Assembly (NCBI GenBank): GCA_937919685.1
Contig: CALFOM010000045.1
Span: 1 to 38,451 of the forward strand
DNA from: an uncultured Phycisphaera sp.
Lineage (GTDB): Bacteria > Planctomycetota > Phycisphaerae > Phycisphaerales > SM1A02
Direction of reading: 5' to 3'
DNA: 38,451 nt
Part shown: positions 23,266 to 31,269 of the stretch, piece by piece
Numbering within the stretch: the first letter of the stretch is position 1
Layout of the letters: each line of letters begins with the position of its first letter
The notes under the pieces: model-generated
What the model saw: only the letters and a program-made list of their open reading frames with translations
Database searches by the model: none
Told to the model about the DNA's origin: nothing
Made by a program: the position numbers and the translations under genes

Positions 23266-24531
23266 ATGGCCGATCTCCGCGTCAACGTCAATGGGCTCAG
23301 TCTTCCAAACCCCTTCGTGATCGGATCCGGACCTCCGGGAACCAACGCGAACGTCATCCGAAAGGCCTTCGACGAAGGTTGGGGTGCGGTGATCGCGAAG
23401 ACCGTTTCACTTGACGCCTCAAAGGTCACCAACGTCGCGCCGCGCTACGCCCGCATGCGGGCGTCGAACTCCCGCGAAGTGATCGGCTGGCAGAACATCG
23501 AACTCATCTCCGACCGCGGATTCGATATCTGGATCGACGAATTCAAGGAGGTCAAGGACGCCCATCCCGAGGGTGTCCTCATCGCCTCGATCATGGAGGA
23601 GTACCGCAAGGACGCCTGGCAGGAGATCGTCGAGCGCTGTCAGGACGCGGGCGTCGATGCCTTCGAGTTGAACTTCTCCTGTCCGCACGGACTCCCCGAG
23701 CGACGCATGGGTGCAGCCATGGGCCAAGACCCCGACCTGCTGGAAGAGGTGTGTGGCTGGGTCAATGAAGTCGCCACGATTCCGGTGTGGGCGAAGATGA
23801 CTCCGAACATCACCCACATCGAAGCACCCGCGGAAGCGGCACTTCGAGCTGGCTGCGAGGGCGTGGCGGCGATCAACACCATCCTCAGTGTGATGGGCGT
23901 CGATCTCGACACGCTTCGCCCGGAGCCCTCGGTGGAAGGCTGGACGGTCCCAGGCGGGTACAGCTGCAAGGCAGTCCGACCCATCGCCCTTCGAATGGTC
24001 ATGGAACTCGCCACCATGATGTACGGCGGCAACTCCGGCAGCAAGATCCCCGCCGAACTGGAGTCCCTTCCCACCCCGAACCCCAAGAAGCCGAAGGACA
24101 TCAAGGCCGGTGACATCAAGACCATGCCCGTCTCTTCATTCGCCCAGCCGGGGCGATATGCCGATCGTTCGATCAGCGCCATCGGCGGGGTGGAGACCGG
24201 AGGCGACGCGGCCCAGTTCATCCTGCTCGGCGCCCAGACGGTCCAAGTCTGCACCGGCGTGATGATCCATGGCTACGGTCTCGCGAAAACCCTCTGCGAG
24301 GAGCTGGCCACCTTCATGGACCGACATGGCTTCGAGCGCATCGAGGAATTCCGCGGACACAGCCTGAATTTCTTCACCACCCACGCCGAACTCGTGCGTA
24401 GACAGGGCGAGATCAAGGCCGCGGAGAAGAACGCCCGCGAGGGCATGGTCACGCAGGACACCAACTGGGATGGTGACCAGTTCGTCGAGCAATCCAACAA
24501 ACTGGTGGCCAACGAGAACGACGAAGACTGA
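23266..24531 (+). CDS. preA: Dihydropyrimidine dehydrogenase-like (PreA-type) FMN protein lacking the ferredoxin domain
   Basis: A 421-residue TIM-barrel flavoprotein of the dihydroorotate/dihydropyrimidine dehydrogenase family, expected to interconvert uracil or thymine and their 5,6-dihydro forms. Residues matching the pyrimidine pocket of mammalian DPD are kept: QNIEL (76-80; DPD N609, E611), NFSCPHG (136-142, with the catalytic Cys139) and INT (203-205; DPD N736, T737). Two things are odd. A lysine/proline-rich insertion of about 47 residues (251-297) interrupts the barrel before AIGGVETGGDA. And after about residue 370 the protein ends in a charged helical tail with no CxxCxxC motif, whereas PreA and DPD carry a two-cluster 4Fe-4S domain. 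No preT gene is nearby. It converges on the catabolic operon. Confidence 0.85.
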   Translation: MADLRVNVNGLSLPNPFVIGSGPPGTNANVIRKAFDEGWGAVIAKTVSLDASKVTNVAPRYARMRASNSREVIGWQNIELISDRGFDIWIDEFKEVKDAHPEGVLIASIMEEYRKDAWQEIVERCQDAGVDAFELNFSCPHGLPERRMGAAMGQDPDLLEEVCGWVNEVATIPVWAKMTPNITHIEAPAEAALRAGCEGVAAINTILSVMGVDLDTLRPEPSVEGWTVPGGYSCKAVRPIALRMVMELATMMYGGNSGSKIPAELESLPTPNPKKPKDIKAGDIKTMPVSSFAQPGRYADRSISAIGGVETGGDAAQFILLGAQTVQVCTGVMIHGYGLAKTLCEELATFMDRHGFERIEEFRGHSLNFFTTHAELVRRQGEIKAAEKNAREGMVTQDTNWDGDQFVEQSNKLVANENDED

Positions 24532-24587: not shown

Positions 24588-25979
24588 TCAGTGGCTCGGG
24601 GTTCGTCCGAGATACCGCCCGCCGCCGGCTTCACCGACGAACCGGCCATTTCGGGCGACGGTGCGTCCGCGGAGAACGACCACTTCGGCCCGCCCCTTCC
24701 GTCGCATGCCCTGATATCCGGAGTAATCCGTCTTCGAGAGACTGTCCGCGACGTCGAAGATCCCTTCGAAGGACGGATCGTAGATCACCAGATCCGCATC
24801 GGAACCGACGGCAATCACACCCTTGCGGGGAAACAACCCAAAGATCTTCGCGGCCTGTGTGCTGCACGCATCCACCATGGTCTCCAAGTCGATTCGGCCC
24901 GCATCCACGCCATAGGTATGGACGAGATCGACTCGTTCCTGAACCGAGGGGATACCGTTGGGAATCGCGGTGAACGCCTCCCGGCCCATTGACTTCTGGT
25001 CCCCGAAATTGAACGGCGCGTGATCGGTACCGATGGTGGAGATCGACCGATCGGCGATCCCCTTCCAGAGTGGATCGTGCTCCTCGGCATCTCGAAGTGG
25101 AGGACTCATCACGAATTTCGCACCTTCGAAACCGGGACGTTCGGCATACGAGTGATCGAGAACGAGGTGCGGTGCGACGGACTCCACCCAGACGTTCACA
25201 CCTCGTCCTCGGGCCGCGATCGCTTCATCGAGCGCCGCCTTGCACGAGGTGTGCACGATGTAGACGTGTGCGCCGGTCAACTCGGCGAAGGTGCAGAGAT
25301 GATTGACTCCGGAAGCCTCGACCGAGCGAGGCCGGGAGGGCTCGTGCCACTCCGGCCCGGTTTTCCCATCGGCGAGCAGCCGTCGCTGCATGGCGTCGAT
25401 CGCCTCGGCGTTCTCGCAGTGGGCGGTCACGATGACTCCGAGATCCCGCGCGAGTTCGAGCAACGGGATCAGATTCGAGTCCGAGATGTCCAGCGCGCCC
25501 TTGTAGGCCAGAAAGATCTTGAAGGAGGCCACCCCATGATCCGCCACCAGCTCACGGATTTGCTGGTCCGCGAGGGCATCGAAACGGACCACCGAAAGAT
25601 GAAAGGAGTAGTCGCAGTTGGCCCCGTCCTCTGCGAGCCCCATCCAGGTTTCGAACGCCGCTCGCGGCTCGTCGTCGGGACCGGGGCAGATCATCTCGAT
25701 GATCGTGGTCGTCCCGCCGACCAGCGCGGCTTGCGTCGCGGAGTCGTGGTCGTCGATCGCGTTGGTTCCCATGAACGGCAGGTTGATGTGCACATGGGGA
25801 TCAATGAAGCCTGGAAAGACCAGTCGATCCGTGGCATCGACCATGTTCGTCCCGGCGGGTAGTTCGGCAAGATCGATCGACGGCTCGATCCGTGAGATGG
25901 TCTCGTCTTCGACGTAAACGTCAGCGCGAATCTGCGAGTCGGCATTGACGACAAGCCCGTTCTTGATGAGCAGTGGCAT
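24588..25979 (-). CDS. hydA: Dihydropyrimidinase / D-hydantoinase
   Basis: A 463-residue cyclic amidohydrolase that opens dihydrouracil or dihydrothymine to the N-carbamoyl-beta-amino acid. Metal ligands are visible: HVH in PGFIDPHVHINLPF (62-64), the probable carbamylated lysine in FKIFLAYKG (K160), H187 in TAHCEN, the His of VHTSC and the Asp of GTDHAPF. Length is typical. The context separates it from allantoinase and dihydroorotase: aminotransferase, permease and beta-ureidopropionase genes lie directly upstream. ATG 25979 lies four bases after the aminotransferase stop; the open frame beyond it runs into that gene and was discounted. It is the last gene of the minus-strand operon. Confidence 0.93.
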   Translation of the reverse strand: MPLLIKNGLVVNADSQIRADVYVEDETISRIEPSIDLAELPAGTNMVDATDRLVFPGFIDPHVHINLPFMGTNAIDDHDSATQAALVGGTTTIIEMICPGPDDEPRAAFETWMGLAEDGANCDYSFHLSVVRFDALADQQIRELVADHGVASFKIFLAYKGALDISDSNLIPLLELARDLGVIVTAHCENAEAIDAMQRRLLADGKTGPEWHEPSRPRSVEASGVNHLCTFAELTGAHVYIVHTSCKAALDEAIAARGRGVNVWVESVAPHLVLDHSYAERPGFEGAKFVMSPPLRDAEEHDPLWKGIADRSISTIGTDHAPFNFGDQKSMGREAFTAIPNGIPSVQERVDLVHTYGVDAGRIDLETMVDACSTQAAKIFGLFPRKGVIAVGSDADLVIYDPSFEGIFDVADSLSKTDYSGYQGMRRKGRAEVVVLRGRTVARNGRFVGEAGGGRYLGRTPSH

Positions 25980-25983
25980 TGGT

Positions 25984-27334
25984 TCAGGAAACCTCGTGGA
26001 GACATCGATCAAGCACGTCGATCGCAAAATCGCAGTCCTCGCGGGTAATGCACATCGGTGGCTTGATGCGAAGCACGTTGCCCTTGAGCCCACCCTTGCC
26101 AAGCAACAGTCCCATCTCCTTAGCCCGATCATGAACCTGCGCCGCGGCGGGGCCGTTGGGAGCCAATGACTTCGAATCCATCACCAGTTCGAGACCGAGC
26201 ATGAGTCCTTGACCTCGGGCGTCACCCACGATGTCGTGGTTCGACTGCAGATTCTTGAGTCCTTCGAGCAAATGACCACCGATGTCGCGGCAACGGCTCT
26301 GAAGGTCGTCCTCAAGCATCACGTTCAGCGTGGCGAGCCCCGCAGCCATCGAGACCGGATTGCCGCCGTAGGTATTGAAGTGCAGACGATTCGCCATACT
26401 TCCGGCGACTTCCGCCCGAGCCACGCACGCACCGAGGGGCGCGCCGTTACCGATGCCCTTGGCCATGGTCACGATGTCTGGCGTGACGCCGTGATTTTCA
26501 AACCCCCAGAATTTCGTCCCGGTCCGACCGAAACCCGTCTGGACTTCGTCGGAGATACAAACCCCGCCCGCGGCGCGGACCGCTTCGTAGACCTTTGGGA
26601 GATATCCGAGCGGGATCTCGACGGTTCCGCCGACGCCCTGAATCGGCTCTGCGATAAAACCAGCGATCTGCCCCGACGTTCCATACTGAATCAAGTCGAT
26701 CACTTCGTCGGCGTACTTTGATCCCGCGTCGGGATCGTCATACCCGTAGGGACCGCGAAGTCGATCGGGAAGGCGAGCGTGATGAACCCCGATGCCGTGC
26801 AGAAGCGGCTGCTTCCAAGTGTGCAGACCGGTCAGGCCCATCGCCTGATTGGTCATCCCGTGATACCCGTTTCGCAACGCGATGAGATCGAAGTTTCCGG
26901 TGTACAACCGAGACATCAACATGGCGAGTTCGTTGGCCTCACTCCCCGAGCTGGTGAAGTAGCACACCTCTAGGCCGGAGTTCGCCGGCATGGTGGATGC
27001 GAGCTTTCGACCAAATTCCGCGATCGTCGGATGAAGATAGATCGTGGTGGTGTGCTGAAGTCGTTCGACCTGCTCCCGGACCTTCTCGACGACGCGGGGA
27101 TGACAATGACCGACCGATACCGTCACGATGCCTCCGAAGAAGTCGAGGTAACGGCGACCTGTCTCGTCAAAGAGCCACTGCATCGATCCCTCGACGATCA
27201 TCAAGGGGTCGCGGTAGTAAGTCAGCAGCGACGGAGCGAGAAACTCGCGTCGCGTGGCAAGGACCTCTTCACGAGTCGGACCGTCATATGGCTTCGGCGA
27301 ATGCGTCGTCGCCGGCATCACTGGATCTGCATGC

Positions 27335-27345
<11 letters not shown>
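25984..27345 (-). CDS. Class III aminotransferase, probably beta-alanine / 3-aminoisobutyrate:2-oxoacid (AGXT2-like)
   Basis: A 453-residue PLP enzyme of fold type I. SSGSEAN (132-138) binds the cofactor phosphate, ISDEVQTGFGRTG (264-276) carries the PLP-binding Asp266, and MAKGIGNG holds the Schiff-base Lys296. The overall sequence resembles AGXT2 and omega-aminotransferases. In this locus the expected job is to transaminate beta-alanine or 3-aminoisobutyrate, made by beta-ureidopropionase, to the semialdehyde. The start is TTG 27345, preceded by AAGGGA at good spacing and overlapping the permease stop by 11 bases. The next in-frame ATG (27318) has no ribosome site at a useful distance. Confidence 0.9.
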
Positions 27346-28801
<1,456 letters not shown>

Positions 28802-28897: not shown

Positions 28898-29767
28898 TCA
28901 CCAGGCGGCGATCCCCTCGTAGGATTCCGGTCGACGGTCACGGTAGAACTGCCAGGTATCGCGCACCGTCTGAATCAGATCAAGGTCAAGATCCGCGATG
29001 ATCACTTCATCCTGATCGCGAGATCCTTCGATCATGATCTGTCCTCGCGGGTCGCAGAAATAACTCTGGCCGTAGAACTCGCCGATGTTCCACGGTGCTT
29101 CGGTGCCGACCCGGTTGATCGCACCGACGAAATACTGGTTGGCAACCGCATGGGCGGGCTGCTCCAGCTTCCAGAGGTACTCGCTCAAACCCGCCACCGT
29201 CGCGGATGGATTGAACACGATCTCCGCACCGTTTAAACCGAGTTCACGAGCGCCCTCCGGGAAGTGCCGGTCGTAGCAAATATAGACCCCGATCTTCCCG
29301 TATCTGGTCTCGAAGACTGGATAGCCGAGATCGCCCGGAGTGAAGTAGAACTTCTCCCAGAATCCCGGCTGGCAATGAGGGATGTGATGCTTGCGGTACT
29401 TCCCGAGGTACTCGCCGGTCTCGTCGATCACTGCGGCGGTGTTGTAATAGACGCCGGTCATCGCCTCTTCATAGACGGGCACGATCATCACCATTCCATG
29501 CTTTTTGGCGAGTTCCTGCATCAGCCGGACCGTGGGGCCTTCGGGAACCTGCTCGGCAGTGCGATACCATCGCGGATCCTGCTCGGCACAGAAATAAGGG
29601 CCGTAGAAGATCTCCTGAAGACAGCAGACGTTGGCTCCTCGTTCCGCCGCCTCGGCGATCAGCCCGACGTGCTTTTCGATCATCGCGGCCTTGATCGCCT
29701 CGAGGTCGGTTGACTCCGGAAGAGCGTTGGACGCCTGAATGAGCGCTGCTCGGGTGATTCTGGGCAT
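28898..29767 (-). CDS. Beta-ureidopropionase / N-carbamoyl amidohydrolase (nitrilase superfamily)
   Basis: A 289-residue nitrilase-superfamily amidase. The Glu-Lys-Cys triad is clear: E52 in CLQEIFYGPYF, K126 in KYRKHHIP and C164 in VYICYDRHFPE. The sequence is close to the N-carbamylputrescine/UPB1-type group. In this operon it should hydrolyse N-carbamoyl-beta-alanine (or the isobutyrate analogue) to the beta-amino acid, CO2 and ammonia. ATG 29767 starts the conserved MPRITRAALIQ strand, 14 bases after the dehydrogenase stop, with GAGGAAAC as ribosome site; a longer frame to 30148 lies inside the dehydrogenase gene and was rejected. Confidence 0.92.
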   Translation of the reverse strand: MPRITRAALIQASNALPESTDLEAIKAAMIEKHVGLIAEAAERGANVCCLQEIFYGPYFCAEQDPRWYRTAEQVPEGPTVRLMQELAKKHGMVMIVPVYEEAMTGVYYNTAAVIDETGEYLGKYRKHHIPHCQPGFWEKFYFTPGDLGYPVFETRYGKIGVYICYDRHFPEGARELGLNGAEIVFNPSATVAGLSEYLWKLEQPAHAVANQYFVGAINRVGTEAPWNIGEFYGQSYFCDPRGQIMIEGSRDQDEVIIADLDLDLIQTVRDTWQFYRDRRPESYEGIAAW

Positions 29768-29781
29768 TAGGTGGAGTTTCC

Positions 29782-31269
29782 TCAGATCCAGCGACGGACC
29801 GTGACTCGTGACTTCGTGAAGAACCGGGCGCCATCCTCGCCGTTCACATGGAGATCGCCGTAAAAGGACTTCTTCCATCCGCTGAAGGGGAAGGCTGCCA
29901 TGGGCGCCGGTACACCGACGTTCACGCCCAGCATGCCGGCCTGGACGGTGCGTTCGAACTTTCGGACCGCGTGCCCCGAGTCGGTGAAGATGACCGACAT
30001 GTTGCCGTACTCGGATTGATTCACAAATCCCACGGCCTCTTCGAGCGATCCTGCCCGCATCACCGAGAGCACCGGGCCGAAGATCTCTTCGGTGCCGACC
30101 CGCATGTCTGGCGTCACGTGGTCGAGGATGGTCGGCCCGACGAAGCAACCGGCCGTCGGGACCTCTGCAGTGCGACCGTCAATCAACACCGATGCCCCTT
30201 CCGATTCGCCGATTCCGATGTACTCGAGTACCCGATCCCGCGATTCGAAATCCTGCATCGGGCCCATCGAGGTGCCGGCCTCATCGCCAGCACCGATCTT
30301 GATGCCCTTGGTCCTCTCCACCAGTGCCGGGACGAACCACTCCGCCGAATCACCGACACAGATCACCACGCTCCCCGCCAGGCATCGCTGCCCAGTGTTG
30401 CCGAAGGCGGATCCGAAGATGCCCTCGACTGCGGCGCCTCGATTGGCGTCCGGCATGATGATCGAATAGTTCTTGGCGCCACACATGCACTGGACACGTT
30501 TTCCGTGGGCGGCACCCTTCGCGTAGATCGACGCGCCGGCCCGGGTCGAGCCGACGAAGGAAACCGCCGCGACGTCCTCGTGGGCGAGCAGTCGATCGAC
30601 CACCACGGGCCCGCCATGAACGAGATTGAGCACCCCTTCGGGGAAACCAGCCTCGTGCGCCAACTCGGTCGTCCGGACCGCGGAGACGGGATCCTTCTCC
30701 GAGGGTTTCAGCACGAAGGTATTTCCGCAGGCGACCGCCATCGGCCACATCCACATCGGCACCATGATCGGAAAATTGAACGGCGTGATGCCGACGCAGA
30801 CGCCGAGTGGCATCCGGTCCATGGAAGAGTCGAGGCCGACGCCACCTTCGTCCTCGGTGCGACAGAACGACGAAGAGACCGCGATCTGAGGCAGCGTGCG
30901 TCCCATCATCAGGACCGGCGCCGCACATGCGTGCTCGATGCAGTCGATGCCCCGACGAACGGAGCCGACCGACTCCCCCATCGTCTTGCCGTGTTCGCGA
31001 ACCAGAATGGACGCGAGTTCCTCGATGTGATCCTCGAGAATCGTCTTGTAGCGGAAGAGGGGCTGGATCCGATCACCCACCGGGATCTGTGACCAAGATT
31101 CGAAGGCCGAGGCCGCCGCAGCCACCGCGCGATCTGCCGCATCTACCGCATCCAGCGGCGTCACCGAGACCGTCTCACCTGTGGCAGGGTCGATGTTGAT
31201 CCGCTGCGTTGTGCCGGCATCCTCGTGAGGCGCCCCGCCGATCAGATGAGGAAGAGACTGGATCGACAT
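29782..31269 (-). CDS. mmsA: CoA-acylating methylmalonate-/malonate-semialdehyde dehydrogenase
   Basis: A 495-residue aldehyde dehydrogenase. NFPIMVPMWMWP (165-176) and LKPSEKDP (187-194) are hallmarks of the CoA-dependent methylmalonate-semialdehyde dehydrogenases (MmsA/IolA), and the catalytic cysteine is C296 in FGNTGQRCLAG. It oxidises malonate semialdehyde to acetyl-CoA, or methylmalonate semialdehyde to propionyl-CoA, with NAD+ and CoA. That is the final step for uracil- or thymine-derived carbon, which fits its place in this operon. ATG 31269 has GGAG seven bases upstream, so the longer frame to 31368 is rejected. Confidence 0.94.
   Translation of the reverse strand: MSIQSLPHLIGGAPHEDAGTTQRINIDPATGETVSVTPLDAVDAADRAVAAAASAFESWSQIPVGDRIQPLFRYKTILEDHIEELASILVREHGKTMGESVGSVRRGIDCIEHACAAPVLMMGRTLPQIAVSSSFCRTEDEGGVGLDSSMDRMPLGVCVGITPFNFPIMVPMWMWPMAVACGNTFVLKPSEKDPVSAVRTTELAHEAGFPEGVLNLVHGGPVVVDRLLAHEDVAAVSFVGSTRAGASIYAKGAAHGKRVQCMCGAKNYSIIMPDANRGAAVEGIFGSAFGNTGQRCLAGSVVICVGDSAEWFVPALVERTKGIKIGAGDEAGTSMGPMQDFESRDRVLEYIGIGESEGASVLIDGRTAEVPTAGCFVGPTILDHVTPDMRVGTEEIFGPVLSVMRAGSLEEAVGFVNQSEYGNMSVIFTDSGHAVRKFERTVQAGMLGVNVGVPAPMAAFPFSGWKKSFYGDLHVNGEDGARFFTKSRVTVRRWI

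Follow-up and report, generated by a model that had tools for sequence, protein, structure and literature searches.

How a dihydropyrimidine dehydrogenase (DPD) that lacks its iron-sulphur domain obtains electrons for its FMN is the question raised by the open reading frame at window:23266-24531, of 421 codons plus stop, where the window is the whole 38,451-nucleotide stretch of DNA analysed here from an uncultured Phycisphaera sp. (Planctomycetota).

Identity of the short-type dihydropyrimidine dehydrogenase

The predicted protein matches Pfam DHO_dh (4.9e-35) and the NCBIfam PreA model NF006183 (379 bits, cut-off 335), and its best relative in the PDB is pig DPD (2.3e-63), with the best class 1B dihydroorotate dehydrogenase behind (1.2e-23). 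Pig DPD K574, N609, E611, I613, N668, S670, C671, K709, N736 and T737, which we take from the DPD literature to be pyrimidine, FMN and catalytic residues, are all identical in the window protein, and these ten positions are invariant in the 95 short-type relatives tested (365 to 421 aa). At E111, S138, A202 and S233 the window protein has residues other than those conserved across 11 PreA proteins. No CxxCxxC motif was seen by eye in the window protein, and the 95 relatives all lack it as well. Fe-S motifs are visible in the aligned PreA sequences. The original prediction of a DPD core that conserves its pyrimidine residues and Cys139 and has no ferredoxin domain is thus upheld, and the sequence comparisons confirm the predicted product as the FMN core of DPD/PreA without the iron-sulphur domain (Table 1).

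Table 1. Features of the short-type gene, its predicted protein and the adjoining genes, in window coordinates
Feature	Position	Strand	Evidence or remark
FMN-only dihydropyrimidine dehydrogenase gene (short-type PreA, plant-PYD1-like)	23266..24531	+	421 aa; Pfam/NCBIfam/PDB matches, tree, residues
NIELI, residues 77-81, pyrimidine-site strand (pig N609-I613)	23494..23508	+	identical in 95/95 short-type relatives
Catalytic Cys139 (pig Cys671) in FSCPHG	23680..23682	+	identical in 95/95
INT, residues 203-205 (pig T735/N736/T737), pyrimidine site	23872..23880	+	identical in 95/95
Variable Lys/Pro-rich loop insertion, about residues 254-299	24025..24162	+	at least 30 residues there in 17/80 relatives; dN/dS 0.108
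FMN-phosphate region, residues 307-331 (GG...QVCTG)	24184..24258	+	G307, G308, Q327, C329, T330 identical in 95/95; role by analogy
Conserved C-terminal tail, residues 366-421, replacing the two-[4Fe-4S] domain	24361..24528	+	no CxxCxxC in 95 relatives; dN/dS 0.033
Dihydropyrimidinase (hydA/pydB)	24588..25979	-	TIGR02033 489 bits, cut-off 393; start taken as ATG 25979
Class-III aminotransferase, probable beta-alanine/beta-aminoisobutyrate transaminase	25984..27318	-	PF00202 4.9e-85; start taken as ATG 27318; substrate inferred from cluster
NCS1-family nucleobase permease	27335..28801	-	TIGR00800 391 bits, cut-off 353
Carbon-nitrogen hydrolase, probable beta-ureidopropionase	28898..29767	-	PF00795 2.4e-65; start taken as ATG 29767; substrate inferred from cluster
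CoA-acylating malonate/methylmalonate-semialdehyde dehydrogenase	29782..31269	-	TIGR01722 553 bits, cut-off 448.5; start taken as ATG 31269

AlphaFold models (mean pLDDT 78.8 and 80.2) consist of a barrel and two low-confidence tail helices, and the model is closest to the FMN domain of pig DPD (Foldseek 2.6e-28; Z 35.5, rmsd 3.5 over 311 residues); class 1A/1B dihydroorotate dehydrogenases have the fold in common with it (Z 29-32). In the model of mean pLDDT 78.8, active-site loops fall below 50 at residues 58-65, 71-77, 204-208 and 224-237. The tail is poorly modelled, with block pLDDT of 35-73 in that model and 46-69 in the other.

Phylogeny and distribution

In our reconstruction (63 rows, LG+C20 PMSF, with a long-branch warning from the tool), the 45 short-type rows formed one side of a branch with support 95/100. 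The eleven PreA rows were nearest to them, although this join was weak (85/77), and the pig DPD domain and three divergent PreA rows were placed outside the short-type/PreA grouping. The catalytic chains of class 1 dihydroorotate dehydrogenases, including class 1A, also lack iron-sulphur clusters. A placement among ordinary dihydroorotate dehydrogenases, which would have overturned the original prediction, was checked: the three planctomycete ones included split off by 100/100 branches, leaving the short type on the PreA side, subject to the same long-branch warning. The window protein carries the DPD pyrimidine residues instead, and its genome has no match to the PyrK domain. When the tree was restricted to core columns, short-type and PreA rows remained separate (support 0.978, in a tree that includes an approximate plant PYD1 sequence).

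The short type was found in several planctomycete families and also in Verrucomicrobiota (L076, L078 and L081, and, by score, 8 of 240 genomes of the phylum sample around G380). Judged from these sequences, it appears as a large planctomycete/verrucomicrobial clade apart from both PreA and dihydroorotate dehydrogenases. The original prediction mentioned neither this clade nor the matching domain make-up described for plant PYD1. A plasmid-borne short type was considered and rejected: all 156 matched plasmid records were below 60% identity, and the 30 listed were 37.5-40% identical and annotated as PreA/dihydropyrimidine dehydrogenase or unannotated. Among the papers listed by our searches of open-licence full text, none appeared to describe a bacterial short form.

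The Lys/Pro-rich insertion and the C-terminal tail

The Lys/Pro-rich insertion pointed out in the original prediction is genuine, the window protein having 421 aa versus 375 aa in its relative L049, but it is not a defining feature. Sequence comparison indicates a variable loop; its interpretation as a functional domain was rejected because its length varies and it is mostly short or absent among relatives. From five sequences (the window's and four near relatives, L003-L006), dN/dS was lowest in residues 1-252 (0.028) and in the tail, residues 366-421 (0.033), intermediate in residues 301-365 (0.059) and highest in the insertion, residues 253-300 (0.108), so that the tail appears to be constrained about as tightly as the catalytic core. 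Furthermore, tail residues H373, L376, W401 and L413 are invariant in the 95 relatives, and D398 is kept in 94, the remaining one being unread. The Lys/Glu-rich tail takes the place of the ferredoxin domain, as first described, but it is not filler, and our guess is that it would help to form a docking site for the electron donor or a dimer.

Genomic context

The five pathway genes are located on the strand opposite to the short-type gene and converge with it (Table 1). By inference from their families, the cluster would constitute a complete route from uracil or thymine to an acyl-CoA, and, since the gene adjoins this full uracil-degradation set, the short-type enzyme likely catalyses the ordinary reduction of uracil to dihydrouracil. 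About 1.7 kb past the cluster, an adenine deaminase gene was also observed (window:32992-34638, +; TIGR01178 554 bits), with a ChaA-like cation antiporter between.

This context is recurrent. In 96 loci of relatives (80 + 16 stretches), tblastn recovered HydA near the short-type gene in 77, the aminotransferase in 65, the ureidopropionase in 59, the semialdehyde dehydrogenase (MMSDH) in 52 and the NCS1 permease in 45, and these counts are lower bounds because many loci are cut by contig ends. Outside the pathway, no other neighbour family (at least 60 aa) occurred in more than 9 of the 96 loci. The sole redox-like family recognised was a flavoprotein, identified from its N-terminal sequence in 7 of 96 loci, which lies at least 5 kb off where coordinates were seen, in loci that have several other neighbours in common.

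PreT-like tblastn matches were obtained in only two of the 96 loci (L053 and L062), 4-10 kb away. The corresponding proteins are 43-45% identical to Deinococcus PreT, and PreT proteins beside PreA in controls are 36-45% identical, so a PreT-like role is possible in these two genomes, though not general. Of the two L053 flavoproteins, one scores above the NF009410 cut-off (748 versus 516) and the other below. By eye, L053:722-9146 and L062:1-3277 each resemble an operon for a 2-oxoacid:ferredoxin oxidoreductase that also encodes GltD/PreT-like flavoproteins and lies a few kb upstream of the uracil reductase gene. Two frames of more than 800 aa (L097 and L100) were considered as gene fusions that might reveal the partner and were rejected: the short-type gene there encodes 366-368 aa, and the frame runs on through the adjoining aminotransferase gene.

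Distribution of PreT and PyrK domains

The window's genome is 97.26% complete in 254 contigs. The PreT/GltD domain PF14691 had no match in it (9 of 14 control genomes were positive) and no PreT gene was found among those adjoining the short-type gene, so the predicted lack of a nearby PreT stands, and the search for an unlinked preT homologue that could have overturned the prediction came back empty genome-wide. Likewise, the PyrK domain PF10418 had no match in this genome, with 6 of 14 control genomes positive. The likely biosynthetic dihydroorotate dehydrogenase of this genome (L002:518-1537, -, contig C223) belongs to the class 1 family (NF005574 304 bits, cut-off 269); since no PyrK domain was found, it would be a second enzyme of the superfamily without its usual electron partner.

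Given that neither a PreT/Fer4_20 protein in the genome nor an iron-sulphur domain in the protein was found, the window protein, as predicted from its sequence, cannot use the PreT to Fe-S to FMN route, and therefore its electron source must differ. This is the part of the original proposal (a different electron partner, an oxidative direction or a new substrate) that is sustained; the two other options are less supported, as discussed below.

The association was examined in 201 genomes of the order, of which 58 had the short type, 26 the PreA type and none both. Classes were set by score and match end: short-type matches had E-values of 4.1e-130 or better, with 57 of 58 reaching the tail end of the model, and PreA-type matches ranged from 5.1e-102 to 1.9e-69, the Fe-S motif itself having been located in one of the 26 (L109, G171). 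In each of the 26 PreA-type genomes, PF14691 was found next to preA, at a distance of 0.9-1.2 kb. In contrast, it was adjacent to the short-type gene in 0 of 58 genomes and wholly absent from 43 of them, each short-type genome being listed as at least 90% complete; in the other 15, it was on other contigs (12) or on the same contig at least 56 kb away (3). The presence of PF14691 differed between the two types with Fisher p 2e-11, a value that ignores the relatedness of the genomes, and PF14691 was found in 34 of 117 order genomes with neither gene type. Because both types occur in the window's family, one type seems to have replaced the other there.

In the phylum sample, the short type was present in 18 of 195 genomes, 12 of which lacked PF14691 (five short-type genomes are counted in both samples). 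Among 25 short-type carriers reached via their loci, with no completeness filter and at least one (G382, seemingly G275) already counted, PF14691 was present in 9 and absent in 16. The PreA-PreT pairing is looser across the phylum, with PreT in the 1.5-kb flank of 7 of the 12 PreA-type loci fetched. Of the loci without it, L106 ends at a contig end, L112 holds a broken gene with the nearest PF14691 more than 6 kb off, and L108, L110 and L111 (G073, G046 and G010) are divergent. The PreA proteins of the latter three are 393-398 aa long and unusual in the arrangement of their C-terminal Fe-S motifs, and their genes have no PreT in the 1.5-kb flank; a dihydropyrimidinase adjoins those of L108 and L111, and PF14691 proteins occur elsewhere in the three genomes. 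These divergent PreA proteins are possibly PydAc-like and ferredoxin-dependent.

Comparison with plant PYD1 and other uracil reductases

An approximate reconstruction of the PYD1 sequence shows 58% identity with the window protein, 67-68% with L055 and L062 and at most 45% with PreA, has a similar tail, and falls inside the bacterial short-type clade. Compared with seven published residue positions, this reconstruction has none of the seven as published, five with an offset of +3, and the two others one residue off. Its likeness to the bacterial short type is a lead only, and a search of open-licence full text did not find the plant tail peptide in print.

According to PMC9930899 and PMC2713857, plant PYD1, or rice DHPD (OsDHPD), retains FMN and uracil sites, lacks the Fe-S, FAD and NADPH parts and has about 400 residues, as does the window protein. 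The active site of PYD1 is said to include an Asn/Thr pair, and its role is in the first step of uracil catabolism (PMC2713857), the role inferred for the short type as well. In contrast to PYD1, the window enzyme is bacterial, has no transit peptide, is encoded in a pathway gene cluster and carries the variable loop insertion. PMC9930899 further describes the last 40 residues of rice DHPD as poorly alignable with mammalian DPD and reports that no homologue of the N-terminal half of DPD was found in plants. Recombinant rice DHPD showed no activity with either NADPH or NADH, for which its authors consider truncation or the tag a possible cause, and the rice homologue was also inactive in a dihydroorotate/fumarate assay (PMC9930899). 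Heterologous Arabidopsis PYD1 had no measurable activity, according to a personal communication cited in PMC2713857, which also states that uracil catabolism decreased by only 40% in pyd1 mutants, so that plants may have another such activity. The partner that PYD1 requires was described as unidentified in 2009 (PMC2713857) and again in 2023 (PMC9930899), and the same papers postulate an additional chloroplast protein in that role.

Among bacterial enzymes, PreTA (PydA1-A2) shares the pathway, and the FMN core of PreA is 33-41% identical to the window protein; however, PreA ends in an Fe-S domain and, in genomes of the order, has a PreT domain encoded beside it, and the short type has neither. 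Clostridial PydAc, as described in PMC7332683, resembles the short type in reducing uracil within a Pyd cluster without an FAD/NADPH part, but it retains its two ferredoxin domains, encoded in one ORF or split over two, of which the short type has none. PydAc draws its electrons from ferredoxin via internal Fe-S clusters, and its activity was abolished without cluster reconstitution (PMC7332683).

The electron source

We propose that the short-type DPD is fed by a general ferredoxin/NADPH:ferredoxin-reductase chain, a reading to which we assign about an even chance (roughly 0.5). Its catalytic steps would follow those of DPD, in which uracil lies on FMN, a cysteine protonates C5 and FMN provides the hydride: uracil would stack on FMN, Cys139 would protonate C5 and reduced FMN would donate a hydride. 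Unlike PreTA, mammalian DPD and clostridial PydAc, the short type would have neither internal Fe-S wiring nor an NAD(P)H:FAD subunit, and its FMN would be reduced from outside by a general carrier, namely ferredoxin, recharged by an NADPH:ferredoxin reductase. The ferredoxin might dock where the Fe-S domain would otherwise be, with the conserved tail helping to build that site or the dimer.

That non-pathway neighbour families recur in 9 of the 96 loci at most suggests a housekeeping donor, for which ferredoxin is our guess. The window's genome encodes an FdxA-like ferredoxin (90.8, below the NCBIfam cut-off of 125), a [2Fe-2S] ferredoxin, which we take to be adrenodoxin-like, and a single FNR-type reductase. 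The latter is the only PF00175 match (L142:991-1983, +, contig C115); its best PDB matches are chloroplast FNRs (6.5e-44), with cyanobacterial ferredoxin-NADP reductases too, and it scores under every listed NCBIfam cut-off (183.5 versus 600 for PetH). It overlaps the end of a gene that by eye looks like a fumarase gene. A dedicated ferredoxin subunit was considered and rejected: none of the 2 PF00111 and 4 PF00037 ferredoxin-domain matches of the genome is on the contig of the window. If a protein donor is needed, the inactivity of purified rice DHPD with NADPH or NADH (PMC9930899) is to be expected.

The main rival, which we consider unlikely, is a direct hydride transfer from NAD(P)H to FMN without a partner protein, as in dihydrouridine synthases. 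These are FMN enzymes without Fe-S clusters, the window protein has a weak match to their family (PF01207, Dus; 19.9 bits, below the cut-off of 20.4), and a partner gene is not generally conserved nearby. Dihydrouridine synthases depend on NADPH to reduce the uracil ring (PMC9176250), which is consistent with such a transfer; the inactivity of rice DHPD with either nucleotide and the lack of measurable activity of heterologous PYD1 (PMC9930899 and PMC2713857) argue against it.

More doubtful is a reductase that serves this enzyme specifically, belongs to an unrecognised family and has its gene elsewhere in the genome. It would correspond to the additional chloroplast protein that plant workers postulate for PYD1 (PMC9930899 and PMC2713857), and the invariant tail could serve as its docking site. 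Nevertheless, pathway genes cluster with the short-type enzyme in 45 to 77 of the 96 loci and redox genes in at most 7, and the PreA type, by contrast, has the PreT domain beside it in all 26 genomes.

An oxidative direction or another substrate, i.e., a dihydropyrimidine oxidase or a fumarate-linked enzyme like class 1A dihydroorotate dehydrogenase, seems very improbable because of the conserved DPD residues and the adjoining reductive pathway genes. The clade is also separate from the three dihydroorotate dehydrogenases tested. Class 1A enzymes are likewise without Fe-S clusters. Dihydrouracil oxidases are found among the fungal proteins that resemble class-I dihydroorotate dehydrogenase (PMC9585004), in keeping with this alternative; the negative dihydroorotate/fumarate assay of the rice homologue (PMC9930899) weighs against it.

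Finally, we give hardly any credence to a PreT or GltD missing from the assembly (97% complete, 254 contigs) or replaced by an unlinked GltD-like protein, as might be imagined from the 15 short-type order genomes with PF14691 somewhere and from the PreT-like genes of L053 and L062, given that PF14691 is absent from 43 of the 58 order genomes with the short type and from 12 of 18 in the phylum sample.

An evolutionary extension of the ferredoxin reading is tentative, and on balance we would not expect it to hold: the planctomycete/verrucomicrobial clade may have dropped its Fe-S wiring together with PreT, being fed from NADPH through a chloroplast-type FNR and ferredoxin to FMN, and plant PYD1 may branch from within this clade, with the same arrangement kept in the plastid. 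If true, this would answer the long-open question of the PYD1 partner.

Implications

A bacterial FMN-only DPD clade is therefore real and conserved, in most genomes without PreT, and the plant enzyme is its nearest counterpart. Database annotation may hide this clade, since the NCBIfam equivalog NF006183, named as NAD-dependent PreA, accepts proteins without Fe-S domains: the three short-type proteins tried all passed (379, 376.6 and 405.7 bits versus 335), although the NAD-linked subunit is absent. As described in PMC2713857 and PMC9930899, plant PYD1 lacks the parts through which FMN receives its electrons in the animal and bacterial enzymes, and the recombinant plant enzyme was inactive. 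The bacterial clade, having the same make-up as PYD1, often compact uracil-degradation clusters and genomes mostly without a PreT-type domain, would be a tractable system for finding the donor, and the planctomycete short type thus offers a route to learn where such enzymes, the plant one included, obtain their electrons.
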